From NCBI GenBank assembly GCA_947584965.1, contig CANPWQ010000008.1, positions 1 through 53,793 of the forward strand: DNA of 53,793 bases, written 5' to 3'. Below are positions 224 to 49,675 of the stretch, one piece after another. Each line of letters opens with the position of its first letter. Position 1 is the first letter of the stretch. The position numbers were made by a program, and so were the translations under genes. The notes beneath the pieces are model-generated. The model ran no database searches and was not told where the DNA came from. It worked only from the letters and a program-made list of their open reading frames with translations. This stretch comes from Candidatus Gastranaerophilales bacterium (GTDB taxonomy: Bacteria > Cyanobacteriota > Vampirovibrionia > Gastranaerophilales > Gastranaerophilaceae).

Positions 224-496
224 TTATATTATTGATTGCCCGTTATACATATTTTTTGTATACTCGTACTCATCTTCTTTGTAATATTGAAGTTCTTTTT
301 CTTTTTCTTGCTTTGTAGACTCCTCACGAGGTTCTATAAACGGCTGAGATTTATCTTTTCGTTTCCAGTTAACCTTAAATCCGTCTAAAAGCCCGTATTC
401 TGTTTCCGTTTTATATGTTCCAACATTTAAAGCATATACCGGAGCTGAAGCAAAAATAATAATTCCTATTAATAATATTGATAATTTCTTTTTCAT
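224..496 (-). CDS. Small exported protein of unknown function
   Basis: This 90-residue protein begins MKKKLSILLIGIIIFASAP, a typical Sec signal peptide with likely cleavage after VYA (about residue 22). The mature part is short and highly charged: a middle stretch rich in Lys/Asp/Pro and a C-terminal half rich in Glu/Lys/Tyr (KEKELQYYKEDEYEYTK). No lipobox cysteine is visible, so it is probably periplasmic or secreted rather than a lipoprotein. It lies 40 bases downstream of the giant gene in the same direction, with no obvious Shine-Dalgarno sequence or promoter between them, so it may be the last gene of that transcript. The terminator at 174-206 lies just beyond it. I do not recognise a family. 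Confidence 0.6.
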   Translation of the reverse strand: MKKKLSILLIGIIIFASAPVYALNVGTYKTETEYGLLDGFKVNWKRKDKSQPFIEPREESTKQEKEKELQYYKEDEYEYTKNMYNGQSII

Positions 497-536: not shown

Positions 537-3500
537 TTAATTTACATCATATATATCATTTTGTAATCTTAAATTTAAAGTGTCAATTACATCTTTGATA
601 TAAGTTTGAAGCTCTTGTACTTTTGCCGTAAATTCTTCACGAACTTTATATTCATTACTGTTTTCTGGAACATTTAATTTCGACAGCAAGCCAATTCGTT
701 CATCTATCATATCAGAAATAGAAAGTATCATTTTATAATTATTTCCTGCTGTTTCCATTAAATCATTTATTATTTGCAACACTATTGCAGGAAGCAATTG
801 CTCATAAAATAGCGGACTTTCTACCGAAATTGAACCGTCTGCAACTTTTATATTTCTCATATTTTCCAAAAAGGGCTTAATTACTTTAGAATCTTCGTTT
901 ACTTTAAGTCTTCTTTCTACATAATCTGCTATGTGTTTGCAGGCATCTTCAAGTGATTTATACTTTATACGGCTTCTTTCAAAGTACTTTTCAATAACTT
1001 TTTGTAATTCTTCCGCTTCATCTAATGTATTATTTATTGATATTACCGTTTTTTCCGTTTCTTCTTTGGCTTTTTTCAAATTAAATGTATTTATTAAAGC
1101 AATTACTGCACTTCTTGCAAGCCCTGTCTGCTCCATAAACAAACTTAAAGTTGTATAGTTATCATCCGCGTTTTCTAATTGCTGAACAAGATATATTAGT
1201 CCGTCATCACTTGTCATATCGGCTCTTTCTTGTTTTGAGTCTATTAAATCATAAACATAAAATATTGGTAGTATATCTTTTATCTTGGAACTAAAGCCCT
1301 CATGCTGATTTTGTACCAGTTTATATTGTATTTTTGTTTGATTTGCAACCTTTAATGCTTTTTTCAAATACATTCTCTTTATTTTATATTCATCCGTATT
1401 TATCTTTCCTGCTAAAATATCTTTTGTACACTCATTTAAAAGTTTTGCGGGATTTTTTGTTATATAATTTTTTTGAACAAATCTTACAAAATCCGTTAAA
1501 TAATCTTCAATAATCTCATCTGATGCATGTTTCTTTAATAAATTAAGTATATTTTTCATCTTTTGCATTGCATCATTTCTATATCTTGCATCCAAACCTG
1601 TATTTACAAATAATGACATATTATTACTTATTTCTTGCATTGCAGACATCTTATTTTTCCTTGACTTGCCTATAATATCCGCATTTATTAATTCATCAAA
1701 TGCTTGATATATCTGATTTAAAATCTTACCTATTTTACTTCCGTCAAATAAACCGTTGGAATTATTTACTTCTTTTAAAAGTAATTCTATTTGAGTCGTT
1801 ATATTTTCAGCACTCGTATCATCTTTTAATTGCTCATATAATTCATTTAGCGATATTCGTGCTTTTTCATAATTTTTTATATTTTTTTCGGAAAGTAAAA
1901 CATTTTTACCCTCTGACAACTTAGAAAATACTATACTTTTTGATGCCGCATTTTTGAATTTCTTATATTTTGACATCATTAAAAGCGTATGCTCTGCATT
2001 TATTATCTTCTCAACTGACTCACTAAACGATGTGAATATTGATCTTACATATTCTTCTATATATTTATCAGACAATACTATCGGTTGGGGGAATGCTTGT
2101 CTTAGTTTGTATTTAGCAAATGCTTCCGCTTTAAATCCTTTTACAAACTTTTGAACATCCATATCTATCAGTTTTATACGAAATTCCCGGTATATGTTAC
2201 CGGCATCACCTAAATCTGTTGAATATAAAATATCTATTCCAGCAATTTTACTAAAATCTCTTACAACTGACATATCATCAGCTTTATATTTCTTTATGTA
2301 ATCATAGCCTGATTCAAAATTTAAGCCTAAATCTTCAGGAGTTAATACATCCATAAACTTTTTCGATAATTCAAATTCTCCATTTTGAAACCCTTGTATT
2401 AATTTTAACAATTCATTATCATCTTTTGGTTTAAGGTATTTATCTATTGCAGCTGTAAATTCTTTTGCCAGAGGAGATTTATTAAATGAGGAATTGGAAT
2501 TTTTTATATCATCTACGGATTTTATTTTTATATCCTTGTATATGATTTCAGATATTATTTCTCCTGCTTTTTTAGCAAAGTACTCGGCTGCTGCTTCATT
2601 ATCAAATAATAATTTTGCATTTTCTTCTGCGTTTTGCTTTAGTATTTCTTCAAGCTGAATTAGCGAGCCTTTCCAGTTAGAATCTTCTTCCATTGAAACA
2701 TCAAATATTTTTACTAATGTTTCATCTTTTATATGTTCGTCTTTTTTCTCACCGAATTGGTCTTCTATATCCTCAAACAATTGCATTATTTTCGATTTTG
2801 AATACATCATAATCATAGCAAGTGTTCTATCGGACTTTCCTATAATATCACTAATCTTATCAATATTATCACCAATTAATTCTTCTTTTGCTTCTTCTAA
2901 TTCTCCAAGAGTTTGCGAAGACAGTATTATATCCCTCAACTCATCATCATGAGTCAGCCTGTATAATACCAGTTTTTCCATTGTTAATTTTAACTGATCA
3001 TTGTCGGGAAGTTTATCATATTCCTCTTGTGAATTAATTTTTTCTAATCTATTTGCAAGCAGTTCCATGCGCATTTCAATTAAATCATCTAAGCCGTCTA
3101 TATTATCAGGATTAATAGGATGTTGTGCCAATTCTTTTTCATAATCTGTTAATTGCGCATCTGCATCATTTATTTCAAATATAGACTGCATTAACTTATA
3201 CAACTTAGAATAAGTTCTGTCACTGCTTCCGGGTAAAATTACATCACTAAATAATCCAAACTTAGTTTTTCCGCCCTCCGCAGTTCCGACAGCACAATCT
3301 ATATCTGACACTTTTTGTCCAATTCTGAAGCTCTTATCCAGAATAAATCCGTCACGCCAGCCGTACCCGCCGCCGTAATCGGTATATCTTTTGCCGTTTG
3401 CACCTGTCCAGTAATATTCATTTTCGACTTTTCCCCAGGAATTATCTGTCCACAGTACGTCTTCATTTCTTTTTTTACCTGTTTTCGGGTCGGTAAAACT

Positions 3501-6338
3501 TTCTGATGTTACCATTGGAATATATTGAGCGTGAAAAGCATAATCGCTATCATCTACACTGGATGACATTATTCCGCTGCCTTTTCCTGCTTTTATATAC
3601 TCTGCAGCTTTCTTAACGTCGGTTTCTATATGATGGGGTTTCCCTGTCATTTGCTCTATTATTCTTACCTGCTCATTTGAGCTTAACCCGCTTGAGCCTT
3701 CTTCTCGCACCCAGAATTGCCCGTTTAATCTTCCTATATATGAATACTGATCTTCAAGTTCATCATGGAGAAGCTCGGTTATATCTTTATATGAATTTTT
3801 ACCGAATTTTCTCATTGCAGATACCGAAGAATCTATTTTATTAAGCAAATCAATTTCATCTGTTTGAAATTTTACTGCAGCTGCATTTGCTTTTTTACGC
3901 ATTTTTATATTAGGTATATTTTTCCTGTTTTCAGCAATTTGAGTATCAATCAAATCAAATCTTTCTTTAAGTTTATCCAGTTTTTTTGTTGAAAGTATCC
4001 ATTGATTTCGTTCAAATGCGTTTATTATTAAGTCGCGGCTTTTTGGCACTTGCCATCTGTTTAATATTTCATTATACTGATCTCTTAATTTCAGATATTC
4101 GTTTCTTTTTTGAGTAAGTGGCATAACTACTTCGTTTTCACCATATTTTGACTGCAATTTTGCATATTCTTCTTCTGATATTCCTGTTTGAAGCATTGTA
4201 AAATATGAACCTAATATCGCATTTGAAAACTCAATAATATTTTCATATCCGAGTTCTCTGATTGCTTCCTGAACTTCATAAGTATTTATTGACTTTGAGC
4301 TGTTTAATCTGTCAATACTCTTTTTTATTCTTTTCAATATTGCATCTTTTTCCGGCTTAATCTCGAATATATCCGCGGCTCGATATATTATCTCTTTATT
4401 ACCTGATTTAACTTCATTTAAAGTTTCTTCATACATCTCAATCAACAAACTTTTTATATCGGAATTAAGCAGTTCTTTTATTAAAGAGTTCAATTTCAAA
4501 GGAATTAAACTTTCAATTTGAATTATATCCCTTGTAAGTCTGTTTTTCATTTTATCTTCAGAATTTTCTAAACCGAATTGACCTGCAAATTGTTCTCGAA
4601 ATTCTTTTGAAGAAAGTTTTGGTTCTAATGAATGCAGATATTTTACAGCTCTTGTTGCTTGAGGCTGTATATTCAACATCTTTTCATACCGCATTACACC
4701 ATCAGGCATATTTACATCGGCTTCTACCGCACTTCTGTGCGCTGCCGCGATTCTGAATAAATTTTTATAATACCTTAATTTCCCCGCAGGTGATGAATAT
4801 TTTTTTGCATTAGCAAATTTTTTATCCGTTAGCGAATACTCATCAGTCATATTATATATAATTTCGAGTTTTTCACTCAATCTTGTTTTTTGGGCTTCTG
4901 TCATATTTTCGTCAGATTTTTCTATAAATTCTTCAAGCCGCTCTTTTTTTATTTCTTTGGGTAATTTCTCTGAAACATTAATTTCATTGCTTGAGTTTGT
5001 TCCGTTGTAGTATTTTATCAAGTCACGTCTTAATTCTCTTATTTGAATAAAAGGTTTTTCAGGGAAAACATATTTGAGTGCGTCATCAAGTTTAGCTCCA
5101 AGTTTACCTTGTTCTTTCAACCATTTATTTTTAGATTGTTCTATACCTGACTGTAAATTTTTTATTTCTTTTCTTTTTTTCTCTAACGCTTCAATTTCTG
5201 AATTTTCTTTTATCAATGCTTTTAAAAATGCTTTTGCGGGAGTTAATGTTTCACCAAGCCCCTCATACCAGCTGGAATCATCATATATCCCGTAATAATC
5301 ATCGTCAAAAGCCGTGTATCGTTCCGTTAATATACTTCCATCACCGCTTGCGTGCGCATTTTGCATCCATATATGGGCTGAAGCGTCTATAATTCTATAT
5401 CCCCGTGACAATGCGGCGTCATAATTTATATCTGCCTTTTCTATTTCTATTTTTTTACCGGTTCCAAGTTCTGTTACATCAAACACTTCCATTGTCGGAC
5501 TGTCTTTTAACTCATCAAGAATAATATCAACGTACCTTGTTTTATCCTCATACGCCAATGCTTTTCGGCATATTGATATTGCCGCACATATTCCCGAGTG
5601 CAGTTGGTCTACCGATTTTATTGTTAACACGTCATCTTCAGGTGTTTTTATTACTATATCGGAAAGCATCTCGTCCAATACTTGTAATTTTTTATCTTCC
5701 AGTTGAGGATGTATTTTATATTCATCACTTAAAAAATATTTAAATTTTTCCAAACATTCTTTTTTTTGTACAATCGATGTTTCTGATGAAGCTATAAAAT
5801 AATCCAAATTTTTCCTGATATTTGCAATCCGAATTATGTCATCTCCGTCGGCATTTTCGGTTTCTTTAGCCAAAACGGCAGTTATATGACTTCTTAACGA
5901 AAGAACATCTTTTTGCTCCGATGTTAAGGGGTGTTTATAATCGTCATCAGTATATCTTTTAAATCTGCGTTTTAAATCTTCGACATTATCCTCTGAACTA
6001 TCTAATGCCATGCTTATCACATTATTTAATATTTCCTGCCAGTTTGTATTTTCTCTATCCTCGGGAGTTATTCCCTCATCATCTAATATTGCTTTAAATT
6101 CCGTATTTGTACCTTGTCCGTAATTAAGATGTTCGGATATATCCAATAAAAATTCAATATTGGCACGGTCCGGAGTCTTTGATAAATTTTGTATAGCTTT
6201 AAGTATATTCAACTTAGCATTTTCACTTATCGGATTTGTTCCATTTTTTAGCTGTTCTATTGAATTTATATCGGTTCTTCTGCTTTTAAATGCAAATTTT
6301 AAATTATTTTGCGCAAATTTAATTTCATTTATTCTCAT
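537..6338 (-). CDS. Giant 1,933-residue protein with a split papain-fold (clan CA) cysteine-protease domain
   Basis: The N-terminal 230 residues are mostly helical. Residues 245-251 read QLHSGIC, which matches the Gln-x5-Cys oxyanion/nucleophile motif of papain and calpain (predicted Gln245, Cys251). The matching second half appears about 685 residues later. His936 lies in YAFHAQYIPMV and Asn966 in WTDNSWG, the papain hallmark, followed by a Gly/Tyr-rich segment YGGGYGWRDGF (988-998). Before His936, residues 885-925 resemble the calpain/C58 right lobe. The intervening part (about 380-860) is charged and helical, with coiled-coil character, as is the long C-terminal half (1,050-1,933). There is no signal peptide or membrane segment. 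The start is supported by AAAAGGAT upstream of the ATG, and an inverted repeat lies in the leader. I infer a cysteine peptidase or transglutaminase-like effector; its substrate and location are unknown. Confidence 0.65.
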   Translation of the reverse strand: MRINEIKFAQNNLKFAFKSRRTDINSIEQLKNGTNPISENAKLNILKAIQNLSKTPDRANIEFLLDISEHLNYGQGTNTEFKAILDDEGITPEDRENTNWQEILNNVISMALDSSEDNVEDLKRRFKRYTDDDYKHPLTSEQKDVLSLRSHITAVLAKETENADGDDIIRIANIRKNLDYFIASSETSIVQKKECLEKFKYFLSDEYKIHPQLEDKKLQVLDEMLSDIVIKTPEDDVLTIKSVDQLHSGICAAISICRKALAYEDKTRYVDIILDELKDSPTMEVFDVTELGTGKKIEIEKADINYDAALSRGYRIIDASAHIWMQNAHASGDGSILTERYTAFDDDYYGIYDDSSWYEGLGETLTPAKAFLKALIKENSEIEALEKKRKEIKNLQSGIEQSKNKWLKEQGKLGAKLDDALKYVFPEKPFIQIRELRRDLIKYYNGTNSSNEINVSEKLPKEIKKERLEEFIEKSDENMTEAQKTRLSEKLEIIYNMTDEYSLTDKKFANAKKYSSPAGKLRYYKNLFRIAAAHRSAVEADVNMPDGVMRYEKMLNIQPQATRAVKYLHSLEPKLSSKEFREQFAGQFGLENSEDKMKNRLTRDIIQIESLIPLKLNSLIKELLNSDIKSLLIEMYEETLNEVKSGNKEIIYRAADIFEIKPEKDAILKRIKKSIDRLNSSKSINTYEVQEAIRELGYENIIEFSNAILGSYFTMLQTGISEEEYAKLQSKYGENEVVMPLTQKRNEYLKLRDQYNEILNRWQVPKSRDLIINAFERNQWILSTKKLDKLKERFDLIDTQIAENRKNIPNIKMRKKANAAAVKFQTDEIDLLNKIDSSVSAMRKFGKNSYKDITELLHDELEDQYSYIGRLNGQFWVREEGSSGLSSNEQVRIIEQMTGKPHHIETDVKKAAEYIKAGKGSGIMSSSVDDSDYAFHAQYIPMVTSESFTDPKTGKKRNEDVLWTDNSWGKVENEYYWTGANGKRYTDYGGGYGWRDGFILDKSFRIGQKVSDIDCAVGTAEGGKTKFGLFSDVILPGSSDRTYSKLYKLMQSIFEINDADAQLTDYEKELAQHPINPDNIDGLDDLIEMRMELLANRLEKINSQEEYDKLPDNDQLKLTMEKLVLYRLTHDDELRDIILSSQTLGELEEAKEELIGDNIDKISDIIGKSDRTLAMIMMYSKSKIMQLFEDIEDQFGEKKDEHIKDETLVKIFDVSMEEDSNWKGSLIQLEEILKQNAEENAKLLFDNEAAAEYFAKKAGEIISEIIYKDIKIKSVDDIKNSNSSFNKSPLAKEFTAAIDKYLKPKDDNELLKLIQGFQNGEFELSKKFMDVLTPEDLGLNFESGYDYIKKYKADDMSVVRDFSKIAGIDILYSTDLGDAGNIYREFRIKLIDMDVQKFVKGFKAEAFAKYKLRQAFPQPIVLSDKYIEEYVRSIFTSFSESVEKIINAEHTLLMMSKYKKFKNAASKSIVFSKLSEGKNVLLSEKNIKNYEKARISLNELYEQLKDDTSAENITTQIELLLKEVNNSNGLFDGSKIGKILNQIYQAFDELINADIIGKSRKNKMSAMQEISNNMSLFVNTGLDARYRNDAMQKMKNILNLLKKHASDEIIEDYLTDFVRFVQKNYITKNPAKLLNECTKDILAGKINTDEYKIKRMYLKKALKVANQTKIQYKLVQNQHEGFSSKIKDILPIFYVYDLIDSKQERADMTSDDGLIYLVQQLENADDNYTTLSLFMEQTGLARSAVIALINTFNLKKAKEETEKTVISINNTLDEAEELQKVIEKYFERSRIKYKSLEDACKHIADYVERRLKVNEDSKVIKPFLENMRNIKVADGSISVESPLFYEQLLPAIVLQIINDLMETAGNNYKMILSISDMIDERIGLLSKLNVPENSNEYKVREEFTAKVQELQTYIKDVIDTLNLRLQNDIYDVN

Positions 6339-6435: not shown

Positions 6436-7041
6436 CTATATTAAATCTACCAACCCTGTTGAATGATCGAAATGACATTTCGCAATATATACATCACCGC
6501 GGTTTACTGCGTCTGATATAATTTTTGATTTTTTCATTATTGTTTCTTCCACCCAAATTGTATGTTGCATTGCAAAATAATTATGGCAGGTTATATCTTC
6601 ATTTTTATCTAAAACCGGGTATACACAAGATAATATTGATTTGAAATCATCCTCTATTTTAGGATAATGCTCTTTTGCATATTTCATTACTCCGCAGTCG
6701 TCATGCCCTAATAATATAACCAATGGTACTTTTAACTTTTTAACGGCATACTCGATACTTTCAATAACATTATCCCCGGCCGTAATTCCTGCAACTCTTA
6801 CAACAAAAAGCTCGCCTATTCCGCAATCAAATATTATCTCAGGAACTACTCTGGAATCAGAACAGCTTAACACTACCGCATAAGGCTCTTGATGAAAGGC
6901 ATATTTTTTAAGTGTTTCTATGCTCATATTTTTTGCCGTCGGGGTTGAATTTACAAAATTTCTGTTTCCCGACAATAATTTTTTAAGCTCTGTTTTTGCC
7001 CTTAACGGTATATTTTCGGGTAATTTTATTTCCATTTTCAT
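6436..7041 (-). CDS. Beta-class carbonic anhydrase
   Basis: This enzyme interconverts CO2 and bicarbonate in the cytoplasm using a zinc ion. From the start I chose, the protein has 201 residues. It shows Cys60-Ser-Asp62-Ser-Arg64 and later His113-Asp-Asp-Cys116, so both zinc cysteines, the zinc histidine and the Asp/Arg dyad are intact. An upstream in-frame start at 7149 would add 36 hydrophobic, non-conserved residues and overlap the divergent gene at 7130. The ATG at 7041 has AAGGA five bases upstream and a promoter at 7059-7087, so I prefer it. No bicarbonate transporter or carboxysome gene is adjacent. It probably supplies bicarbonate to carboxylases. Confidence 0.9.
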   Translation of the reverse strand: MKMEIKLPENIPLRAKTELKKLLSGNRNFVNSTPTAKNMSIETLKKYAFHQEPYAVVLSCSDSRVVPEIIFDCGIGELFVVRVAGITAGDNVIESIEYAVKKLKVPLVILLGHDDCGVMKYAKEHYPKIEDDFKSILSCVYPVLDKNEDITCHNYFAMQHTIWVEETIMKKSKIISDAVNRGDVYIAKCHFDHSTGLVDLI

Positions 7042-7058
7042 TTTTCCTTTTTGTTTAT

Positions 7059-7087
7059 ATTGTAAATATATTCCCTTTTTTAAGCAA
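7059..7087 (-). promoter_or_regulatory. Promoter of the carbonic anhydrase gene
   Basis: On the minus strand, TTGCTT is separated by 17 bases from TACAAT, followed by an AAGGA ribosome-binding site and the ATG at 7041. Spacing is ideal for the main sigma factor. It also supports the shorter start of the gene. Confidence 0.5.
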
Positions 7088-7129
7088 TATAATTTATAAT
7101 AAAAAAGTGGAGTAGTTAAGGAGTATATT

Positions 7130-7789
7130 ATGGCTAATAATGCATACATTATTCAAAGAAACCAAAAACTTGGTACACAGGTAGTTAATATGCTAAATAA
7201 AAGGTATTTTGAAGCATATTATGCAAAGAATAAAAAAGAAGCACTGGAAAAAGCAATTGAGCTTTTACCGACAAAAGGTGAAAGTATTTCTTGGGGCGGG
7301 TCTATGTCCATAATTGAAATAGGGCTTTTAGACCATGTTTTAAAAAACAACTATAATGTTATAAATCGTGATAAGGCGGCAACACCTGAAGAACGCAACG
7401 AGCTGCTTAGAAAAGCCATGACTTGTGATACTTTTTTAATGGGTTCAAACGCATTAAGTGAAAGAGGTGAACTCGTTAACATTGACTGTATGGGGAACAG
7501 AACAGCTGCTTTAATGTTCGGACCTAAAAATGTCATTATTATTGTAGGAATAAATAAAGTTATGCCCTCACTCGATGACGCTATAAAAAGAGCAAGAAAT
7601 GTTGCTGCACCTACCAATATGCAAAGGGTTGCCGGAAACGGAATAAGACAAACTCCTTGTTTTGGAATAGGAAGTTGCAGTGATTGCAATTCTACAGACT
7701 CAATTTGTTCACACATTGTTATTACAAGACTTTGCAATCCGCCTAAAAGAATTAAAGTTATTTTAACGGGTGAAACTTTAGGATTTTAA
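7130..7789 (+). CDS. LUD-domain protein (LutC/YkgG, DUF162 family)
   Basis: The 219-residue protein is a stand-alone LUD domain. Diagnostic stretches are WGGSMSIIEIGLL (about residues 55-67), MGSNALSERGELVNID and NVIIIVGINKVMPSLDDA, followed by a Cys-rich tail (CFGIGSCSDCNSTDSIC) that may bind a metal or cluster. Family members take part in lactate oxidation (LutC) or related redox steps, usually with LutA/LutB. No lutA or lutB is in this window, so the substrate is open. A clear AAGGAG lies eight bases before the ATG. The gene ends four bases inside the convergent neighbour at 7786. Confidence 0.85.
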   Translation: MANNAYIIQRNQKLGTQVVNMLNKRYFEAYYAKNKKEALEKAIELLPTKGESISWGGSMSIIEIGLLDHVLKNNYNVINRDKAATPEERNELLRKAMTCDTFLMGSNALSERGELVNIDCMGNRTAALMFGPKNVIIIVGINKVMPSLDDAIKRARNVAAPTNMQRVAGNGIRQTPCFGIGSCSDCNSTDSICSHIVITRLCNPPKRIKVILTGETLGF

Positions 7790-8478
7790 TCTTCCGTTTT
7801 AAAATGTTTTTCTGCTGCTTCCGAGGTTAATAGCATTACTGCTAAACTCGGAAGCATTTTTATATTTCCGCTTTTTATTAATTCTTTTATTTGTTTATGC
7901 AGTACTTTATCCGGTGAACGAAATCCCATTTTATAATAAAACGGTATAGGATTTTCATTTTTTCTATATCTTGATTCGTCTCTTCCGTATCCTACCGAAG
8001 AATGCAGCCACAGGGCACCGCCCTTTCCTCGTTTTCGACTTACTGTCACTGCTTCTTTTATTAATTCCGTACCTATACCCGAATATGTTTCACCCATTAA
8101 TGACCTTATTTCAAGAATTTTAGGTATATTATTATCAGGCTCTGTTAATACATAATCATCTTCAGGAAATACACTGTCGCAATTCATATTCATATATCCT
8201 GCTTCTTTTCGATTTACCATTAATTTGTAAAATAAAAAGTCACCAATCCTATCTCTCATTAACTCTGCCCTTTGAGGCATTAATGTATCTCTGTTAATTA
8301 ATTCAACAGTTTTTACTTTCCTAAACCTGCCAAATGAAGGCATGAAATTGGATTGAAGTACATATAAGGGAACTTTTTCTCCGCTATTTTTAATTTTTTC
8401 ATTTTGGTATGCTAATTTTTGTTGTTTTAAACAAGAATAATTATTATATAATTTTCGTGAAACAGGCTTTATTTGCAT
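7786..8478 (-). CDS. Probable GNAT-fold N-acetyltransferase
   Basis: This 230-residue protein has a GNAT-like core in its second half. LEIRSLMGETYSGIGTELI (about 126-144) resembles motif A, the acetyl-CoA pyrophosphate loop and following helix. GGALWLHSSVG is the next strand, and PIPFYYKMGFR is the usual motif B. The N-terminal 60 residues are poorly conserved and start MQIKPVSRKLY, similar to the starts of two other uncharacterised proteins in this window. The C-terminus has a short helical extension. AAGGAG precedes the start. The acceptor substrate cannot be told. The gene converges on the LUD gene with a 4-bp overlap, so there is no room for a terminator. Confidence 0.6.
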   Translation of the reverse strand: MQIKPVSRKLYNNYSCLKQQKLAYQNEKIKNSGEKVPLYVLQSNFMPSFGRFRKVKTVELINRDTLMPQRAELMRDRIGDFLFYKLMVNRKEAGYMNMNCDSVFPEDDYVLTEPDNNIPKILEIRSLMGETYSGIGTELIKEAVTVSRKRGKGGALWLHSSVGYGRDESRYRKNENPIPFYYKMGFRSPDKVLHKQIKELIKSGNIKMLPSLAVMLLTSEAAEKHFKTED

Positions 8479-8611: not shown

Positions 8612-9448
8612 CTAACTGCTCATCAACTCTATTGCATTTTGAAGCAGGGTTTTATGCGATTTAACCATTTGATCGGCAAGTGTTAACTGCATTTGAGCCT
8701 GCTGGTAATAAGCACTGTTTGCGTCAAAATCCACATTAGAAAGCTCAATAAGTCCGCTTCTTACTTCACCTCTGCCAACAACAGGTCTGCCGGAATCAAC
8801 AGTTTCGATAAACTGTCCTTCTTTTACTTCAAATAACTGCTGAGGGTTATGGAAATTTATTATTGCAACTTTATATAAAGGAGTCATAACCTTTCCGCCG
8901 TCAGCTTTTCCGTATAATATTCCGTCATCTTTAAATTCAAATTCTTCATACTTACCTAAATATTTTCCGTTAGACGGGTCAATCCATAATTTAATATTTG
9001 TAGTAGGAACGGAAGCCGCTCCGCCATCAAAAGCAGTATCAACAAAAGAGTCTGCGTCAACCGGTTTTGCGCCGTTCATTATCTCTCCCTTATCATTTAA
9101 AATATATCCTTGAACTGCTTGGCCGTCTTTACTTCTGTATACTCCTTCGCCGTCAAATTTAAACTCTCCGAGCCTTGTATATACAAGTCTGCCCTTATCA
9201 TTTCTTAATACGAAATATCCGTTTCCCTCAAGAAATATGTTTTCATCTGATGTTCCGGGCTGTGATTTTCCTTGACTCAAATTACGCAGCCCCGTATTTC
9301 CGACAGAACCGTCCAAAAATGTTTTAAAGGTAAATTGTTTTTCACGGTATCCCGGAGTATAAACATTCACAAGGTTTTCTGTTATATCATTTATCCAGTA
9401 TCTTGTTACTTTTTGAGTATTTAATGCCGTAATAAATCCGTCATGCAT
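8612..9448 (-). CDS. Flagellar hook/rod protein of the FlgE/FlgF/FlgG family
   Basis: The 278-residue protein has the axial-protein layout. The N-terminal helix carries the family motif in altered form (NLVNVYTPGYREKQ instead of NIAN-NTxGYK). A central beta domain includes NGYFVLRNDKGRLVYTRLGEF, then KVAIINFHNPQQLFEVKEGQ. The C-terminal helix is GLIELSNVDFDANSAYYQQ. It lies directly after a FliK-like hook-length gene (TAATG, 1-bp overlap), which favours a hook (FlgE) role. It is short for FlgE and closer in length to FlgF/FlgG, and two other family members are encoded near 49-50 kb. The exact subclass is therefore uncertain. It would be exported by the flagellar type III apparatus. Confidence 0.8.
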   Translation of the reverse strand: MHDGFITALNTQKVTRYWINDITENLVNVYTPGYREKQFTFKTFLDGSVGNTGLRNLSQGKSQPGTSDENIFLEGNGYFVLRNDKGRLVYTRLGEFKFDGEGVYRSKDGQAVQGYILNDKGEIMNGAKPVDADSFVDTAFDGGAASVPTTNIKLWIDPSNGKYLGKYEEFEFKDDGILYGKADGGKVMTPLYKVAIINFHNPQQLFEVKEGQFIETVDSGRPVVGRGEVRSGLIELSNVDFDANSAYYQQAQMQLTLADQMVKSHKTLLQNAIELMSS

Positions 9449-10065
9449 TATTTTTCTCCTTTATTATTATTTTTATTTTTGTTTTGTCTGTTGTTTTGCC
9501 TGTATAATAAGTCATTATACGGAAGATTTTGTTCTTCAAATCTCTGTCTTAAAGCCGGAATAGAGTTTCTTAAATAATTTTCCACTTCCGCGCTTCCCGG
9601 TATAAATTCTGCCGTTATTTTCCCGTGCTTATCTATTTTTAATATAACCGATACATCATTATCAAAAGTTATTCTTACAGGCTTTTGAGTGCTTTGAGCC
9701 TTTTGTATCAGTTCCGTTATTTTATTTGTTACCTCAACCGCCTTTTGTGATACAGTATTTTGCAGTGTTTCTATTTGCATTATTCCTTTAAAATCCCCAG
9801 ATGGAGTTGATTCAACACTAAATTTCCCGTCTTGAGCCATATTAACAAAAAACATTGCATCTTCTATACTCATCATTATTGAGTCTAAATTAAACTCCAA
9901 TTCGATGTCAGAGTTTATTTCTTCATTTTGGTTAATTCCTTGATTTAATATTTCTGAAAAAGGAGAATTAACACTCTGCAATATCTCGGTTTCTTCGTCC
10001 GTAACCGCTATATTTTTGAGTTCTTTATTCTCAATATTTTGATTAATCTGAGCTTCTACTTTCAT
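9448..10065 (-). CDS. fliK: FliK-like flagellar hook-length control protein
   Basis: This protein has 205 residues. Residues from about 130 match the FliK C-terminal (Flg_hook) domain: PVRITFDNDVSVILKIDK, then GKITAEFIPGSAEVENYL, then a helix (NSIPALRQRFEEQNL). In other bacteria this domain contacts FlhB to switch export from hook to filament subunits. The N-terminal ruler part is only about 120 residues, much shorter than in enteric FliK, and the tail is Asn/Lys-rich and disordered. It sits between fliJ and the hook/rod gene, as expected for a hook-assembly cluster. The name rests on the domain and on context. Confidence 0.7.
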   Translation of the reverse strand: MKVEAQINQNIENKELKNIAVTDEETEILQSVNSPFSEILNQGINQNEEINSDIELEFNLDSIMMSIEDAMFFVNMAQDGKFSVESTPSGDFKGIMQIETLQNTVSQKAVEVTNKITELIQKAQSTQKPVRITFDNDVSVILKIDKHGKITAEFIPGSAEVENYLRNSIPALRQRFEEQNLPYNDLLYRQNNRQNKNKNNNKGEK

Positions 10066-10074
10066 ATTTATCCT

Positions 10075-10548
10075 TTAATATTCTTCATTATTTTCAATAG
10101 CTTCTTCTTCTTTTTTATCACGGCTTCTTTGGAAATATTTTTGAACTGCCACTTCTGATAATTGCTTTATTTCTGCTGCTTTTTCTTCTTCTTTATACTG
10201 TTCAAGTGCTCTTTCTTTATGTTTTTCCAACACCTTAACTTCTTTTTCGCATTGAGCAAGTTTTTCTTTTTCTATTTCAAGTGCTTTTATTGCTTCTTCT
10301 TTTTGTTTTTCAAGTTCTTCGCCTTTTTCATACAGATGTTTTAAGTATTTATCGTAAGAATCCATCATTCTGAAGTCGGTTGTTGTCCTCATTATTTGTA
10401 TTACGCCTGATATTTCAAGATTATTGTCGTCTATTAATCCTTGTATTCTGTCTACCTCGTTTTTTGCTTTTATTACTTCTTGCAGCTGCTCTTCTTTCTT
10501 TCTTATCCTGAAATCAAGCATCTTTTGCAATCTGTATCTGAACGGCAT
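10075..10548 (-). CDS. fliJ: Flagellar export chaperone-like protein FliJ
   Basis: The 157-residue protein starts MPFRYRLQKMLDFRIRKKEE, the typical FliJ N-terminus, and is a nearly continuous Lys/Glu-rich coiled coil (about 15-130). FliJ sits in the centre of the FliI ATPase ring and helps export. Here it is not next to fliI (40-41 kb) but heads a separate cluster with fliK and a hook/rod gene. A plus-strand Phe-rich reading frame across 10162-10344 is only the antisense of this coiled coil. Confidence 0.85.
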   Translation of the reverse strand: MPFRYRLQKMLDFRIRKKEEQLQEVIKAKNEVDRIQGLIDDNNLEISGVIQIMRTTTDFRMMDSYDKYLKHLYEKGEELEKQKEEAIKALEIEKEKLAQCEKEVKVLEKHKERALEQYKEEEKAAEIKQLSEVAVQKYFQRSRDKKEEEAIENNEEY

Positions 10549-30169: not shown

Positions 30170-30190
30170 ATGCAAAGTAAAAAAGTATGA
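30170..30190 (+). CDS. Putative six-codon leaderless minigene (MQSKKV) coupled to the next start
   Basis: ATG at 30170 lies six bases behind the -10 box. It reads MQSKKV and stops at TGA 30188-30190, which overlaps the ATG of the main gene at 30187 (ATGA). The main gene has no Shine-Dalgarno sequence, so reinitiation after this minigene could deliver ribosomes. This is inferred from arrangement only. Confidence 0.35.
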   Translation: MQSKKV

Positions 30191-31980
30191 ATAAAGATTT
30201 ATATAAAAAAAATTACTTATTAAATATAAATATAATATTTACCACGGTAATAATTATTCTTAATTTGATTCCTTATTATATTTCAGCTGGGAACAAGGAA
30301 TCTTTTACAATTATAAGCCTGCTTATAAACTGCCTTATATTTGCAGGCTACAGAATAATTATTTCAAATTTATGGGAAAAATACAGGCTTCCGATAAAAA
30401 AAGAACTGTTATATATTAATTACCCTTTAACAATAGCATTAATATTCGTTTTCATAGCAATAGTACTTTTAACAAACATAATAATTATAGCTGCTGTTAA
30501 TAAAGATGCCGTTAATCCCGTATTTATCTCCAGCTTTTTCTTCAGCACAATGACTATGCTTTTGCCGTCAATGCTTTTAATTATTTACATGTTTTTAATT
30601 TGTCCGTCTTTTTTAATACCGTCATTTGAAAGAAAAAAACAAGAAAACAAATCTGACATAATCCTGTTAATTTTCTTTATCAGTTTTATAATATTTTTAT
30701 TTTTTAAATTTGTTATAGGAATTACGGATAATTTTTTATCAAAAGATAAATACAGAGCAAAAAAATTACCGTTAGAGTATTCTACCAAATATTTAAAATA
30801 TAAAAATATGCTGCCTGAAAGAATAAACATATTAAAGAAACAGGAAGTAAAAGTTCCTCTATATTTTACTTCGGACGGATTTAAATTTAAAAACTATATA
30901 GAAGCGGAAGATTTTTGCCGTTCGATTAATGCAAGAGTTCCTAATCATCTTGAAATATATAATATTATATTTAACAGATTTGACACTTTCGGCGAACAAT
31001 ACTATTGGACAAGTGACAGAATAGGAAAATATCCGCTAACATTACATTTTAAGAATATGACATACGAAATAACTATTAAACCAATAGGAATTATACCTGT
31101 TTTATATTGTGTAGCAGACGGAGAAGAATACAAATATTCACTTAAACAAAATTATTTTTATAAGGCAAAAACAAAAAAACGTAACTCTACACAAACCCAA
31201 AACAAAAAAGCATTTGAATTTCCTCCCAAAACTATAAATGATAAATTAACAAATAAGGAAAACCAGAATAATAAACAAAATATTAATAACACATTAAAAA
31301 ATGAAGCATCTTTTGTGAATTTCAGTATAAAGCATGTTCCAAAAGAAGTATTTGATGAACTTTTAACTCAAGGATACTATTATAATTCCTCATCGAAAGC
31401 AAATCCTTATTATGAATCATCAGATAGTAAATTAAATTTAAAAATAAAACAAAATGCTCATAATATAAGATTGTGCAATTTTCTGTTTACCGAATATAAA
31501 GATATATCATTACAAAATCAAAGAGAAATATGGCGTCAGAGTTTTTGTTCACCGTCATTTGAGCTTATAAAAGCGACGCCGGTCCTAAAAACAAGGTACG
31601 AAAAAGACGCATATTGCATGTCAAATGAAGGTAGATTACCTAATATAGCTGAACTTGGCGGAATTATAAAAACTCTTAAAATTCCTGCATCTAATAATTT
31701 GTACTGGACAAATAATACTGTAACCGATTACTTTAATGACGGAAAAAGACCTGTTGCCGTGTATTATACAAATAATGATTTTATTCAAGTAAAATTACCC
31801 GATAACGGAATTAAAGCAAATACATTCTGCATAAAACAATCTAATAATCCGTCTAAGATTATATCCAATTATTCATCAAGATTTTTTGGTGAAACAGGTA
31901 AATATTATGCTCAAAAAATATGCCCGTCATGCCAATATTATGAAATGCCGGATACTGTTCTTATTGACAGTTATATTTAA
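30187..31980 (+). CDS. Polytopic membrane protein with two DUF1566/C-type-lectin-like domains
   Basis: Of 597 residues, the first 180 contain about five membrane helices (near 13-31, 42-60, 80-103, 112-140, 157-178). Two similar soluble repeats follow. The first (about 239-309) has AEDFCRSINARVPNHLEIYN, YYWTSD and a final Cys308. The second (about 472-549) has KDAYCMSNEGRLPNIAELGG, LYWTNN and Cys548. This A..C....RLP...E....YWT..C pattern is that of DUF1566/FGE-like C-type-lectin folds, with one Cys near each end that could form a disulfide. An Asn/Lys-rich linker separates them. The soluble part would be periplasmic or surface-exposed. Ligand and function unknown. The gene is very A/T-rich. 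Confidence 0.6.
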   Translation: MNKDLYKKNYLLNINIIFTTVIIILNLIPYYISAGNKESFTIISLLINCLIFAGYRIIISNLWEKYRLPIKKELLYINYPLTIALIFVFIAIVLLTNIIIIAAVNKDAVNPVFISSFFFSTMTMLLPSMLLIIYMFLICPSFLIPSFERKKQENKSDIILLIFFISFIIFLFFKFVIGITDNFLSKDKYRAKKLPLEYSTKYLKYKNMLPERINILKKQEVKVPLYFTSDGFKFKNYIEAEDFCRSINARVPNHLEIYNIIFNRFDTFGEQYYWTSDRIGKYPLTLHFKNMTYEITIKPIGIIPVLYCVADGEEYKYSLKQNYFYKAKTKKRNSTQTQNKKAFEFPPKTINDKLTNKENQNNKQNINNTLKNEASFVNFSIKHVPKEVFDELLTQGYYYNSSSKANPYYESSDSKLNLKIKQNAHNIRLCNFLFTEYKDISLQNQREIWRQSFCSPSFELIKATPVLKTRYEKDAYCMSNEGRLPNIAELGGIIKTLKIPASNNLYWTNNTVTDYFNDGKRPVAVYYTNNDFIQVKLPDNGIKANTFCIKQSNNPSKIISNYSSRFFGETGKYYAQKICPSCQYYEMPDTVLIDSYI

Positions 31981-32015
31981 TAAATTTATCATCTAAATAA
32001 ACAGAGGAGATTAAT

Positions 32016-33749
32016 ATGCCATTTGAGCTTAATTTAACAATAGAAGAACTTGAAAAAAGAACACATAAAGATTATCTGATAAGAAAGCCGATGTTAAAAG
32101 AAGACGCGGTTGAATACCTCGCATTGAGCGAGGGCGACAAAAAAGCACTTGCACATCTTGTAAAAGCCGCAAATATTGCAAACATTATATACATGAAACA
32201 GGATAACGAATTAAATCTGCCGTTTAGAGATTATCTTGATGAAGAAATAAAAAAAGGGAATAAACAGGCAGAACTTACAAAAATATTATTTAATGCACAA
32301 TTAGGCATAATCGGCATAGACTCGGAGTCAAAACCCGTTATACTTTTAAAAGGAGCAAAAGAAAGTGACGGCAAAGCATTTTACCCTTCTGACCTTACAA
32401 AAAACGAACTGCATAATATTTTAAAAGAAATGCTGAAAAACGGCGAAAAAGAAGAAGTCGCGAAAATATTAAATCAAAGAACAATAGTAAAACGCAGCGG
32501 CAATAAATTAAAAGCCTTTGATTATACGGAAGAATTTAAAGAAGAATTTAATAAAATAGCAGATGAACTTGAACTGGCTTCAAAAACTTCAACGAACCAA
32601 GATTTTAATGAATATCTGAATTTGCAGGCGAAGGCTTTAAGAGAAAATAATCCTATGTTTGACGCTTATGCCGATAAAAAATGGGCGACGTTACAGGATA
32701 CTCCGCTTGAATTTACAATATCACGCGAGCAATACGCCGACCTTTTAACGGGAAGCGTTATGGAGGATGAAGAATTAAAAAATCTGCTTGAAGAAAACAA
32801 TATAACCCCTATATCAAAAGATTCAATAGGGATAAGGGTTGGAATAGTAAATAAAAAAGGGACTCAGGATTTATTAAAGGTAAAAAAATATTTGCCTTTA
32901 ATGGCTGAAAATATGCCATTAAAAGACAAATACGAACAAAATATATCCTCTGATGAAGATAATCTTCAAACAATGGCAGATGTTGATATAGTATCACTTA
33001 GAGGGGACGAGGGTTCATACAGGGGCGGAATTACCATTGCTCAAAATCTCCCTAATAACGACAAATTATCATTAACAATAGGCGGAGGAAGAAGAAATAT
33101 TTATCACAGACAGGTAAGAACAAGCAATTCCCCCGAAGCCATAGAACGTAGGAAAAAAAGATTAAATGCTACACTTGCCCCCGAATTACATAAATATTAC
33201 AACCCTGAAGCCGACCATTGGTTTACTATCGGGCATGAAAATGTGCATTCGCTGGGCCCCAAATCAGGTACGGAAGCACTAGGCAAATACAAAAATATTA
33301 TTGAAGAAAACAAAGCGGATATGGGTTCTTTGGCACTGTTAGACTGCTTGACGGAAGCCGGAGTATATACGGAAGAAGAAAAGAAACAAATACTTGTAAC
33401 ATTTGGTGCAAACTGCTTTTTAAAGGCAAAGCCCGAATTATCACAAGCACACAGAGTCCGAACTATAATGCAGGCATACTTTTTTATTAAAGAAAAAGCC
33501 ATAACCGTAAGCAATGACGGCATTATTAATATAGATATTGATAAAATGACAAAAACAGCAATGAAAATGCTGACGGAAATTATTGAAGTTCAGCTGTCGC
33601 AGGATTTCAATATGGGCGAAAATTATGTTAATAAATACTTTCAATGGACTGATGAAATAAATGCCGTTTCAAATAAATTAAAACAAACCGATAAATCGCT
33701 CAACGGAATGATAGAAACACCGTTGGCTGATTTTATTATAAAGGAATAA
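32016..33749 (+). CDS. Dipeptidyl-peptidase III-like (M49) zinc metallopeptidase with an HExxH motif
   Basis: This 577-residue cytoplasmic-looking protein has no signal peptide. Zinc ligands are predicted at His407 and His411 in GHENVHSLGP, with Glu408 catalytic, and a downstream EENKAD (430-435) gives the Glu ligand. M49 enzymes carry H-E-x-x-x-H and E-E-x-x-A-D, so the second motif fits and the first is one residue shorter. AFYPSDLTKNEL (121-132) and the late helix AHRVRTIMQAYFFIKEKAI also fit M49. DPP III removes dipeptides from short peptides. GAGGAG precedes the start. It stands three bases before a radical SAM gene and may be co-expressed with it. Confidence 0.7.
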   Translation: MPFELNLTIEELEKRTHKDYLIRKPMLKEDAVEYLALSEGDKKALAHLVKAANIANIIYMKQDNELNLPFRDYLDEEIKKGNKQAELTKILFNAQLGIIGIDSESKPVILLKGAKESDGKAFYPSDLTKNELHNILKEMLKNGEKEEVAKILNQRTIVKRSGNKLKAFDYTEEFKEEFNKIADELELASKTSTNQDFNEYLNLQAKALRENNPMFDAYADKKWATLQDTPLEFTISREQYADLLTGSVMEDEELKNLLEENNITPISKDSIGIRVGIVNKKGTQDLLKVKKYLPLMAENMPLKDKYEQNISSDEDNLQTMADVDIVSLRGDEGSYRGGITIAQNLPNNDKLSLTIGGGRRNIYHRQVRTSNSPEAIERRKKRLNATLAPELHKYYNPEADHWFTIGHENVHSLGPKSGTEALGKYKNIIEENKADMGSLALLDCLTEAGVYTEEEKKQILVTFGANCFLKAKPELSQAHRVRTIMQAYFFIKEKAITVSNDGIINIDIDKMTKTAMKMLTEIIEVQLSQDFNMGENYVNKYFQWTDEINAVSNKLKQTDKSLNGMIETPLADFIIKE

Positions 33750-33752
33750 TTA

Positions 33753-35546
33753 ATGAAAACCGTATTCATATTTCCTCCTCAGTGGAATATACATTCTCCA
33801 AGTACAGGGATTCCTACACTTATGGGAGTATTATCGGAAATGGGAGTTGAGTGTATAGGATATGATTTAAATATTGATTATTTTAATTACATACTTAAAT
33901 CTGAACATATTATTGATGCCATAAAAAAATCAAAAGAAATAATTAAAAATACTGATAATAAATACCCAATAGATAAAGTTAATTATATTAAAAGTGAACT
34001 TGATAAATTTTACAAATATAAACATAGAGAAACGCTTATTAATAAAATAGACAATATTTCAAATCTTATAAAAGATAAAAAAAATTTTTATAACTATAAA
34101 GCAAAAGCAGTTCTTAAACTTTTTATAAGTATGGCATTGAACATTTTATCTTTGTCTTATTATCCGTTTAAAATAAGTGAAAACTCATTCGGTAATATCA
34201 AAATTGCTCGAATAGACCCTAAAAATTTTTATCTTTATAAAAGCATATCTGAAGATAAAGATTATAACATGTTTATAGAATATATGGAAAATAAAATTCC
34301 CAAATTATCAATAGAAAATGGGGATCTGATATGCATTTCAATAAATTCAACCGACCAAATCCTAGGGGCCTTAAGTGCAATTAAAATCATAAGAAAATTA
34401 TACAAAGTAAAAATTGCCTTAGGAGGAAGCTGGATTGACTATGCAACAACATTAATAAAGAAAGATAAAGAACTTTTTACTGATTTTGTAGATTATTGTA
34501 TGAGCGGACTTGGCGAAATCGCAGTAAAAGAATTGTGGGAATATCATACAGGACAAAGAGAATTAAAAGACGTATCAAATATTTTATATTATGAAAATGA
34601 TAATATATACCAAACAAAAAACGTAAATAAATTAAGTAAAAAAACAGTAAAATATGTTTATAACGGATATGATTTTTCTCAATATTTTATGTATAACACT
34701 GTTCTTCCAATAAAAGTTTCATACGGTTGCTATTGGGGTAAATGCAAGTTTTGTAACTATAATACAAATAAAGTATATGATCCCAAAAGTGTTGATGAAG
34801 TAATTATGGAAATTGAAGAATTAATAAACAAATATAATGTAAAATATTTTTATTTCCAAGACTCTGCTTTATTCCCCGGCTTTATTGAAGAATTCGCAAA
34901 TAAAATAATTTCAAAAAAAATACATATCAGATATATGACAAATTTACGCTTCGAAAAAGAATTTAATAAAAAATTATTAAAAAAATTATATAAATCAGGA
35001 CTTAGAATTGCACAATGGGGTTTAGAATCAGGCAGTCCTAAGATTTTAGAAAAATATAACAAAGGAATTGATATTCCAACAGCCATCAGAATACTAAAAG
35101 AGGCATATAATATCGGTATTTATAACCATTTATACTTAATTTACAATTTCCCGTGTGAAACTATGGACGATTTTATGATGACTATTAACTTTATAAATAA
35201 ATATAAAAAAGAAATAAAGTCATTTACATTTCATCCATTCTGTATACATAAAGGTACATATATATATGAACATCCGGAAGAATTTTCTATTGATAAGGAA
35301 TTAATAAAGGATAAAATATTTATATACTACAATAATATTTGTGATTCAAAAGAAAAAGATCAAATAGTAAACAGAGAAATTTCAAGACTGCAAAAATCTC
35401 CTCAAACATTGATATATCAAACATTAAGCACTTGTTTAACACTACCAATAATAGATAAAATTCCGTTAAAATATTTAGATATAGTTTATAATTATGAAAA
35501 GATAAAAAACAGAATCAAATTATATATAAAAAAGTTACAAAAATAA
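33753..35546 (+). CDS. B12-binding-domain-type radical SAM protein
   Basis: Of 597 residues, the N-terminus (VFIFPPQWNIHSPSTGIPTL) and 185-265 (GDLICISINSTDQILGALSA, GGSWIDYATTLI, SGLGEIAVKEL) form a cobalamin-binding-type Rossmann fold. It lacks the DxHxxG base-off histidine. An unusual helical, Lys-rich stretch (about 50-180) is inserted between its strands. The radical SAM core starts with SYGCYWGKCKFCNY, cluster cysteines 326, 331 and 334 (C-x4-C-x2-C), followed by QWGLESGSPKILEKYNKGI. Such enzymes methylate or rearrange lipids, cofactors or peptides; the substrate is unknown. It follows the M49 gene by three bases and precedes a small peptide gene. Confidence 0.75.
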   Translation: MKTVFIFPPQWNIHSPSTGIPTLMGVLSEMGVECIGYDLNIDYFNYILKSEHIIDAIKKSKEIIKNTDNKYPIDKVNYIKSELDKFYKYKHRETLINKIDNISNLIKDKKNFYNYKAKAVLKLFISMALNILSLSYYPFKISENSFGNIKIARIDPKNFYLYKSISEDKDYNMFIEYMENKIPKLSIENGDLICISINSTDQILGALSAIKIIRKLYKVKIALGGSWIDYATTLIKKDKELFTDFVDYCMSGLGEIAVKELWEYHTGQRELKDVSNILYYENDNIYQTKNVNKLSKKTVKYVYNGYDFSQYFMYNTVLPIKVSYGCYWGKCKFCNYNTNKVYDPKSVDEVIMEIEELINKYNVKYFYFQDSALFPGFIEEFANKIISKKIHIRYMTNLRFEKEFNKKLLKKLYKSGLRIAQWGLESGSPKILEKYNKGIDIPTAIRILKEAYNIGIYNHLYLIYNFPCETMDDFMMTINFINKYKKEIKSFTFHPFCIHKGTYIYEHPEEFSIDKELIKDKIFIYYNNICDSKEKDQIVNREISRLQKSPQTLIYQTLSTCLTLPIIDKIPLKYLDIVYNYEKIKNRIKLYIKKLQK

Positions 35547-39266: not shown

Positions 39267-40118
39267 ATGTATAAATTAGGATTAATAGGATACCCCCTGT
39301 CACATTCAATGTCAAAAGTAATACAAGAAGCCGCATTAAAATCCTTAGGGCTGGAAGGTTCTTATGAATTGCTTGAAACAGAACAGGAAGATTTAATATC
39401 AAGAATAAAGTATTTAAAATCTAACGGATTTCAGGGGTTTAATGTAACAATACCGCTAAAAGTACCTATTACATTATTTTTATCGGAAGTAGATAATGTA
39501 GCAAACGTAGCGGGAAGCGCAAATACAATAAAAATTCTTAATGACTCAACACTTGTCGGCTATAATACCGATGTATACGGATTTGTAGAAGCAATGGAGG
39601 AAAATTTCAGAAAAGAAATAGCAAATTCCAATGCAGCGGTTCTTGGTAACGGGGGAGCCGCAAGAGCAATAGGCGTCGGACTTTCTATCTTAAAAGCTAA
39701 AAAAATTGACTTTTTTGCAAGAAATATAATAAATGCCTCCGAAATGGCAGAAGTTTTAAGACGTAATTTTCCAAATGTTGAAATGAGATGTCATCAAATA
39801 GAAAGTTTAAAAGATTTAAGCGAATATAAAATTTTGGTAAATACAACTCCCATAGGGATGAAAAGTAAAGCGGCAGGAATTTCTCCCATTGATGAAGATA
39901 TAGTAAAAACAATGAATAAAGACGGTGTTATATATGATATTGTATATAATCCGTTAAAAACCGAACTTATAAAACTTGCACAAAAACACGGAATTAAAAC
40001 AATTCAAGGTCTTGATATGTTAATATATCAAGGAGCAAAAGCGTTTGAGATTTGGACAGGTAAAAAGCCCGATATTTTAAAAATGAAAATAGCAGCCCTT
40101 GAAGCAATGCTTGATTAA
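39267..40118 (+). CDS. aroE: Shikimate dehydrogenase
   Basis: AroE reduces 3-dehydroshikimate to shikimate with NADPH in aromatic amino-acid synthesis. The 283-residue protein has the substrate motif GLIGYPLSHSMSK, the catalytic Lys in FNVTIPLKVP and Asp in GYNTDVYGF, the Rossmann motif AVLGNGGAARAIG and NTTPIGM, IYDIVYNPLKTELI. Length is normal. It converges on fliI with a 4-bp overlap. Confidence 0.97.
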   Translation: MYKLGLIGYPLSHSMSKVIQEAALKSLGLEGSYELLETEQEDLISRIKYLKSNGFQGFNVTIPLKVPITLFLSEVDNVANVAGSANTIKILNDSTLVGYNTDVYGFVEAMEENFRKEIANSNAAVLGNGGAARAIGVGLSILKAKKIDFFARNIINASEMAEVLRRNFPNVEMRCHQIESLKDLSEYKILVNTTPIGMKSKAAGISPIDEDIVKTMNKDGVIYDIVYNPLKTELIKLAQKHGIKTIQGLDMLIYQGAKAFEIWTGKKPDILKMKIAALEAMLD

Positions 40119-41464: not shown

Positions 41465-41468
41465 TTAA

Positions 41469-45306: not shown

Positions 45307-45317
45307 TATTTTCTCCG

Positions 45318-46976: not shown

Positions 46977-47067
46977 AAATCCCTAATTTTACACTATCAC
47001 ATATTTGATATTATACTATTTTTTTTATTTTTCGGTAAATTCTTAACATTTAAATATTTGATTTAAT

Positions 47068-47403
47068 TTAAATGGAAATATTCATAACGGCATTATAGGC
47101 ATTTATTACTTTTGAGGTCATTTGTGTCGCAAGCGATATACCAAGTTCTGCCTTTGACATTGCTGTTATTACATCATGTATATCTACTTCCGAATTTCCC
47201 ATCATTTGCTGATTTAATAATTGGTCGGGTTTTTCTATTTCACTGTTAAGGTTACTTACCATACCCGATAATACAGTCTTAAAATCAGCACCCTCTTTTA
47301 TTGAGGAGGTGCCAAAACCTTTCATTGAAAATTCATCAATCGGACCTATAGAATTTATATTTGAAAATATATTTACATTCGGAACTATTCTGTTTTCTAT
47401 CAT
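47068..47403 (-). CDS. fliE: Flagellar hook-basal body complex protein FliE
   Basis: FliE links the MS ring to the rod. The 111-residue protein ends with the family pattern EVDIHDVITAMSKAELGISL followed by ATQMTSKVINAYNAVMNISI (final 40 residues). The length is typical. It lies 13 bases after the transglycosylase gene and 91 bases before fliF, a gap with no clear promoter or terminator. Confidence 0.9.
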   Translation of the reverse strand: MIENRIVPNVNIFSNINSIGPIDEFSMKGFGTSSIKEGADFKTVLSGMVSNLNSEIEKPDQLLNQQMMGNSEVDIHDVITAMSKAELGISLATQMTSKVINAYNAVMNISI

Positions 47404-47416
47404 AGATTTACCTTTC

Positions 47417-48124: not shown

Positions 48125-48145
48125 TACACACTACCCTTTACTGTT

Positions 48146-48589: not shown

Positions 48590-48591
48590 TA

Positions 48592-48942: not shown

Positions 48943-48952
48943 TTACTCTCCT

Positions 48953-49663: not shown

Positions 49664-49675
49664 TTAATTGCCTTT

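Follow-up and report, generated by a model that had tools for sequence, protein, structure and literature searches.

A putative giant papain-like cysteine peptidase of Gastranaerophilales with a long split between its catalytic cysteine and histidine

The candidate peptidase gene and its neighbours

The window, i.e., the whole stretch of DNA that was analysed, comprises 53,793 nucleotides of contig CANPWQ010000008.1 from a Candidatus Gastranaerophilales genome (assembly GCA_947584965.1). An open reading frame on the minus strand at 537..6338, recognized as a gene from its ATG start and its homologues, encodes a protein of 1,933 amino acids that belongs to a family without annotation in Gastranaerophilales. 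A large reading frame of this size and position had been described in an earlier note, which gave no strand, and was borne out by a check of reading frames in the window, the strand being minus. The gene was single-copy in its own genome (1.73 Mb, 74 contigs). Among relatives, the family members of locus L014 and genome G525 each contained one in-frame stop (TAG, TGA), which could reflect either a degraded gene or an error of MAG assembly.

Upstream of the candidate peptidase gene, the window annotation placed a carbonic anhydrase family gene at 6436..7149 by family match, and 40 bp downstream a minus-strand gene at 224..496 encodes a 90-residue protein with a signal-peptide-like N-terminus. 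The family of this small protein (F3; median identity 68.5%) came immediately after the peptidase gene in 31 of the loci examined, the window included, and was still found there in four loci (L054, L064, L070 and L071) where the upstream gene order had changed. The 90-residue protein had no match in Pfam or PHROGs, and its one NCBIfam match was far below the cut-off. No Pfam match was obtained either for a 230-residue protein encoded on the minus strand at 7786-8478, which was the second-fastest evolving of the genes compared (median identity 47.4%). Elsewhere in the window, the plus strand at 30187-35546 carries three consecutive large reading frames (597, 577 and 597 amino acids) within a stretch of low GC content (about 29%), the first of them without a Pfam match.

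Genes of a flagellar-type export apparatus were recognized by family matches on the minus strand at 8612-10548 and 40115-50365; these include a T3SS/FliI-type ATPase, FlhA, FliH, FliF and rod/hook-like proteins, while FliK- and FliJ-like matches in the window were below their cut-offs. The FlhA family was present in 24/24 sampled genomes of the genus, and flagellin in 1/24, with 20 genomes shown to be without it and three more inferred to be so from absence in the match list. The genus apparently possesses a filament-less flagellar apparatus, to judge from these gene contents, and passages of a 2013 report (PMC3787301) describe filament genes as lacking in one gut genome, MEL.A1. Across the class, absence of flagellin and presence of the peptidase were unlinked, several peptidase-bearing genera having flagellin as well. 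An operon shared with flagellar hook genes was also considered, given that many loci of close relatives have FlgE/FliK/FliJ-like families on the upstream side, but was not used as evidence because an opposite-strand gene usually intervenes and because no such link was seen in other genera.

Conserved residues, layout and similarity to known families

The motifs QLHSGIC, YAFHAQYIPMV and WTDNSWG begin at residues 245, 933 and 963, respectively, and contain Gln245 (5604..5606), Cys251 (5586..5588), His936 (3531..3533) and Asn966 (3441..3443; all on the minus strand) exactly as placed in the earlier note, with Gln245 as the presumed oxyanion-hole residue and Cys251 as the presumed nucleophile. Conservation was assessed from 83 distinct family proteins or pieces, 77 of which were aligned after six partial pieces had been dropped; 70 of the 77 rows spanned the whole protein (7 did not), and counts of invariant positions refer to these 70. 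Gln245, Gly249, Cys251, His936, Asp965, Asn966, Trp968 and Gly969 were identical in 77/77 rows, all from Gastranaerophilales-type gut MAGs, so that no homologue in the alignment had lost any of the four putative catalytic residues, a result that favoured the earlier reading of the site; the same four were identical in 35/35 rows of a first, narrower alignment. At position 967, 47 of the 77 rows have Ser and the other 30 have Thr. The spacing from Gln to Cys was 6 in every row and that from His to Asn ranged from 20 to 33 (30 in 46 of 77 rows), while the distance from Cys to His was 467-490 in 4 rows and 639-717 in the remaining 73.

With the boundaries between halves and insert (approximately 376 and 836) set by us from the alignments, the following segments were distinguished, all on the minus strand. 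An N-terminal leader (residues 1-23, MRINEIK...FAFKSRRTD; 6270..6338), in which F17 was conserved in 74/77 and R21 in 76/77 rows, is followed by an N-terminal region (residues 24-195; 5754..6269), by a first putative papain half with Gln and Cys (residues ~196-376; 5211..5753), by an inserted region of variable length (residues ~377-835; 3834..5210), by a second putative papain half with the His and Asn motifs (residues ~836-1040; 3219..3833) and by a Pro/Gly-poor C-terminal tail, also of variable length (residues 1041-1933; 540..3218). The 38 positions (of 1,933) that were invariant in the 70 spanning rows were distributed as 20 in residues 196-376, 13 in residues 836-1040, 4 in residues 1-195, one in the tail (D1299) and none in residues 377-835. 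Pro plus Gly in the window protein amounted to 1-8% of all segments except residues 841-1040 (14%), and judging from amino-acid composition alone, the insert would be rich in helices. Hydropathy revealed no N-terminal hydrophobic segment, Sec signal or membrane segment (highest 19-residue mean 1.28), in agreement with the absence of a signal peptide noted earlier.

Cys251 and His936 were the sole Cys and His conserved in at least 80% of the 70 spanning rows. With the threshold lowered to 70% of rows, no further Cys or His of the window protein qualified, the next being C195 (43/70); at position 1625, the consensus was His in 49/70 rows. Median identity to the window protein in these rows was 50% and 38% in the two halves, as opposed to 21-35% elsewhere, and identity across both halves fell to 34% in a diverse subset of 58 rows. 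Values of dN/dS, which are rough because some pairs had dS above 0.9, were 0.05-0.13 in the two halves (0.06-0.12 for residues 196-400 and 0.05-0.13 for the second half), 0.09-0.18 in residues 1-195 and 0.08-0.25 in the insert for six close pairs, and 0.15-0.24 in the tail for five pairs. These values indicate purifying selection along the whole protein that was strongest in the two halves, within the limits set by the high dS of some of the six pairs.

The pattern of conservation is strong evidence that the two halves would come together as one papain-type site. The proposal that a long insert divides a Gln/Cys/His/Asn site of papain type was upheld by spacing and by conservation in all 77 rows, but not the insertion of about 685 residues that went with it, since 685 is the entire distance from Cys to His and the conserved halves end near residue 376 and resume near residue 836. 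Segments flanking the motifs were near-constant in length, and the stretch from about residue 372 to about residue 850 spanned 262-509 residues, i.e., varied by approximately 250. The insert consists of a constant part and a module at residues ~549-764 (4047..4694, minus strand), and it is mainly this module that was missing from the four members with the short Cys-His distance (L024, L025, L110 and L113). Because the short form required two changes on a 59-row tree computed from the two halves, with well-supported branches forcing at least two, the module was probably gained or lost more than once. In papain, approximately 134 residues lie between Cys and His; the present protein therefore has about 550 more, of which about 215 belong to the optional module.

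Searches of family libraries gave no acceptable Pfam match, whether for the protein as a whole or for the separate halves of 58 members (for second halves, among the best 25 of 27 families listed), and no acceptable match to the family protein in NCBIfam, PHROGs, PADLOC or PDB chain sequences (best PADLOC E-values: window protein 0.041, L024 member 0.014; none for PHROGs). The papain C1 model (PF00112) had no match in the genome of origin at E 1e-8 or 1e-10 and was absent among the Pfam families listed, at E up to 10, for the halves of the 58 members. The calpain C2 model (PF00648) matched 1/58 second halves, at E 0.039, and none of the other 57, and neither USP (C19) nor OTU deubiquitinase models were among the Pfam matches listed. 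Several other matches were dismissed as effects of composition, namely those of the family profile to calmodulin and designed-helix PDB chains (best E 0.011), for which the stretches listed lie in the insert (profile positions 443-559), the Pfam matches to SPACA7, Endo_dU and Cation_ATPase_N, which were below cut-offs (E 0.002-0.009), and those to Scytalone_dh (3/58 first halves, best E 0.0039). A separate observation concerns locus L120 (genome G259, contig C58; same family, other genus), which contains two PF00112 matches separated by some 3 kb on a single strand, in open frames approximately 1,200 residues long.

Profile comparisons were performed by hhalign with a reference of 28 C1 peptidases from 31 loci of the same phylum, picked by our own motif search. 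Both halves aligned in catalytic register: Gln and Cys matched their C1 counterparts in the Cys half (score 20.2, P 0.028), as did His and Asn in the His half (score 21.4, P 0.024). Scores for 16 unrelated control families were as high as 22.8; column-shuffled C1 profiles scored as high in 1/100 cases for each half. The outcome depends on the alignment used, as the His half scored 17.2 (P 0.12) against 18 C1 sequences and the score of the whole core varied between alignments from 18.9 to 32.9 to 20.0 (58-row alignment; 7/100 shuffles as high). The resemblance to family C1, though in register, is marginal. Sequence scores do not establish membership in C1, and the argument therefore rests on the invariant catalytic set.

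Quite likely, this protein belongs to the papain-like superfamily (clan CA) as a giant cysteine peptidase or a related acyl-transfer enzyme. The core helix, carrying Cys251 and the oxyanion residue Gln245, would come from residues ~196-376 and the beta-sheet half, carrying His936 and Asn966, from residues ~836-1040, with the presumably helix-rich region protruding between the two. In papain, the Trp-Gly that follows Asn shields the contact between His and Asn, and the same pair of residues would serve this purpose here. Cleavage at the site would proceed by the usual Cys-His mechanism, and the insert together with the N- and C-terminal regions may select or hold a large protein substrate. We infer fold, catalysis and helix content of the family protein from its sequence.

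Gln six residues ahead of Cys, taken together with Asn-x-Trp-Gly, is the signature of C1/C2 peptidases, and no transglutaminase model was among the Pfam matches listed. Both points argue against a non-peptidase of papain-like fold, i.e., a transglutaminase, deamidase or acyltransferase that would act on a protein substrate through the same Cys-His-Asn site. We regard such an enzyme as unlikely, although the conservation data cannot separate hydrolysis from transfer and the papain-like superfamily includes transglutaminases and acetyltransferases, according to sections of a published classification (PMC10318531). Less likely still is a large helical structural or scaffold protein in which the motifs are unrelated to catalysis and conserved for some other reason. 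Such a protein would account for the lack of a significant profile match to any peptidase and for the scarcity of Pro and Gly over most of the chain, but hardly for a single strongly conserved Cys and His, with Gln at -6 and Asn-x-Trp-Gly, in 77/77 rows or for the alignment of both halves in catalytic register with C1.

Distribution, rate of evolution and possible role

A protein search of 58 genomes gave matches in 40, comprising 35/35 genomes of the same genus (that of the window included) and 5/23 others; several of the same-genus matches were cut by contig ends, one such piece (in genome G015) being 128 residues long. A profile search of 382 genomes of the class gave matches in 95, representing 23/97 genera and 24/24 genomes of genus g1. 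Three of the 95 were outside family f1, all in the same order, and none was beyond the order. Among named genome contigs, a scan identified 114 relatives, from which 78 loci were kept. The titles were those of Candidatus Gastranaerophilales (one Avigastranaerophilus), Melainabacteria or Cyanobacteria MAGs or, for the others, plain 'Bacterium' or 'uncultured bacterium', with rumen, goat, sheep, deer or 'Lapin' among many of the sample names. On viral contigs, none of 43 pattern matches was confirmed as a relative, nor was any relative confirmed in phages or plasmids; viral, plasmid and defence-related readings were rejected on these grounds and on those of the weak PADLOC and absent PHROGs matches. 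The family was thus present in every sampled genome of an uncultured animal-gut bacterial genus, yet has no name in four protein-family libraries. Among the open-licence PMC matches listed, none dealt with a peptidase of this type from Gastranaerophilales or Melainabacteria, which is weak evidence of absence.

The candidate peptidase gene was the fastest evolving of 13 compared, with a median orthologue identity of 40-41% versus 47-85% for 12 neighbouring families (9-29 loci per family, the two nearest loci, L036 and L037, being excluded). From a rate of evolution far above that of the neighbouring genes and from the lack of a Sec signal, our guess, with the balance about level, is that the protein acts beyond cell housekeeping, either on a host, prey or competitor protein or on the envelope. 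Fast evolution, the missing Sec signal and a leader like that of unrelated proteins together hint at an outward-facing role, but the first two of these would also fit a lineage-specific cytoplasmic protein. An active but purely cytoplasmic peptidase of this kind, engaged in regulation or quality control and without any outward role, would be compatible with the catalytic part of the preferred explanation and is a realistic possibility, if somewhat short of an even one. The matches in 35/35 genomes of the genus, the absence of any sign of mobile elements and the lack of a Sec signal or membrane segment are in its favour, as opposed to the patchy distribution outside the genus (95/382 genomes of the class), the highest rate among the 13 genes and the resemblance of the leader to that of unrelated proteins.

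This leader, which in the candidate peptidase has the form M-R-I-N-E-I ... F-K-S, resembles short leaders, M[KR]I[NS]xI(N) ... F-[KGT]-[GSA], on unrelated Gastranaerophilales proteins of the same genome and order (L067/L077, which represent one family, and L172, L175, L176, L180, L185, L187, L213 and L215), including an AAA ATPase and several proteins without a Pfam match. A leader of the same kind was also noted on orthologues of the 230-residue protein (7786-8478) in L062, L067 and L077. Statistics on the leader were mixed. Among 781 other flank genes, F-[KGTNSQE]-[GSA] was not enriched in the first 30 residues (58 occurrences versus 62-78 in later windows). Of the flank genes starting with M[KR]I[NST]xI, only 2/8 had F[KG][GASKHN]. 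For proteins of the same genome starting with MKI[NS]xI, F[KG][GASKHN] was present within residues 7-52 in 8/11, compared with 84/969 flank genes, with the qualification that the pattern was framed after examples had been seen and that 16 of the loci behind the 11 proteins were hand-chosen from a list. The start pattern exceeded its backward control in the genome of origin (69 versus 42) and in the sum over 12 genomes of family f1 (58 versus 13), an excess that may arise from gene starts favouring ATG-Lys-Ile anyway. The leader may be a shared targeting tag, with an enrichment that is suggestive rather than established, and given the mixed statistics is therefore treated as a lead only.

The leader and the flagellar export genes in the window are no more than circumstantial hints at a type III injected effector, and the effector role raised as one option in the earlier note is a hypothesis. 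Its most specific form, an exported giant peptidase for which the leader would be an export tag common to many unrelated proteins and the flagellar-type apparatus the exporter, and whose split site with removable module would target a protein of a host, prey or competitor, we consider improbable. If the protein does face outward, it would offer a molecular handle on the interaction of Gastranaerophilales with hosts or neighbours.

Comparison with known papain-like systems

The present family shares with papain C1 peptidases (PF00112) the order and spacing of residues, Gln-x5-Cys ... His ... Asn-[S/T]-Trp-Gly, and in one alignment Gly922-Ile923, 13 residues before His, was aligned to the Gly-Ile of C1 (G922 in 75/77 rows, I923 in 53/77 rows). 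It differs from C1 in the distance between Cys and His, which is 467-717 residues as opposed to approximately 130-180, in the lack of a significant profile score and in its long N- and C-terminal regions. With calpain C2 (PF00648), the common features are the catalytic residues and, for the window protein, the lack of a signal peptide; in contrast with calpain, in which Asn is followed by Pro-Trp, the Asn of the present family is followed by Ser/Thr-Trp.

Insertion into a papain-like core is known from deubiquitinases, and five common insertion points have reportedly been recognized in USP domains. In the portions of a 2023 classification of papain-like proteinases that bear on this point (PMC10318531), insertions are described as abundant across the superfamily and UCH-type deubiquitinases as having an extensive insert, a beta 'finger', between core helix and sheet. 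Similarly, passages on the LOT-type OTU deubiquitinases of Legionella (PMC7690952) describe helical lobes of 178-210 residues between the Cys loop and the variable loop. As described in these passages, the USP/UCH and LOT enzymes are papain-like peptidases in which a large insert separates core helix and sheet, and the present family would resemble them in this. They differ from it in that the USP insert is a beta 'finger' whereas the composition of the present insert suggests helices, and in that the present insert exceeds theirs in length and the family has Asn with x-Trp-Gly at the acid position. Because such inserts are already described for deubiquitinases (PMC10318531 and PMC7690952, in the parts cited), the 'new kind' of peptidase proposed in the earlier note is better regarded as a new, long instance of an architectural theme already on record. 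The family would be an undescribed one among papain-like peptidases, distinguished by the unusual length of the split between its Cys and His halves and by natural variants that retain or lack part of the insert.
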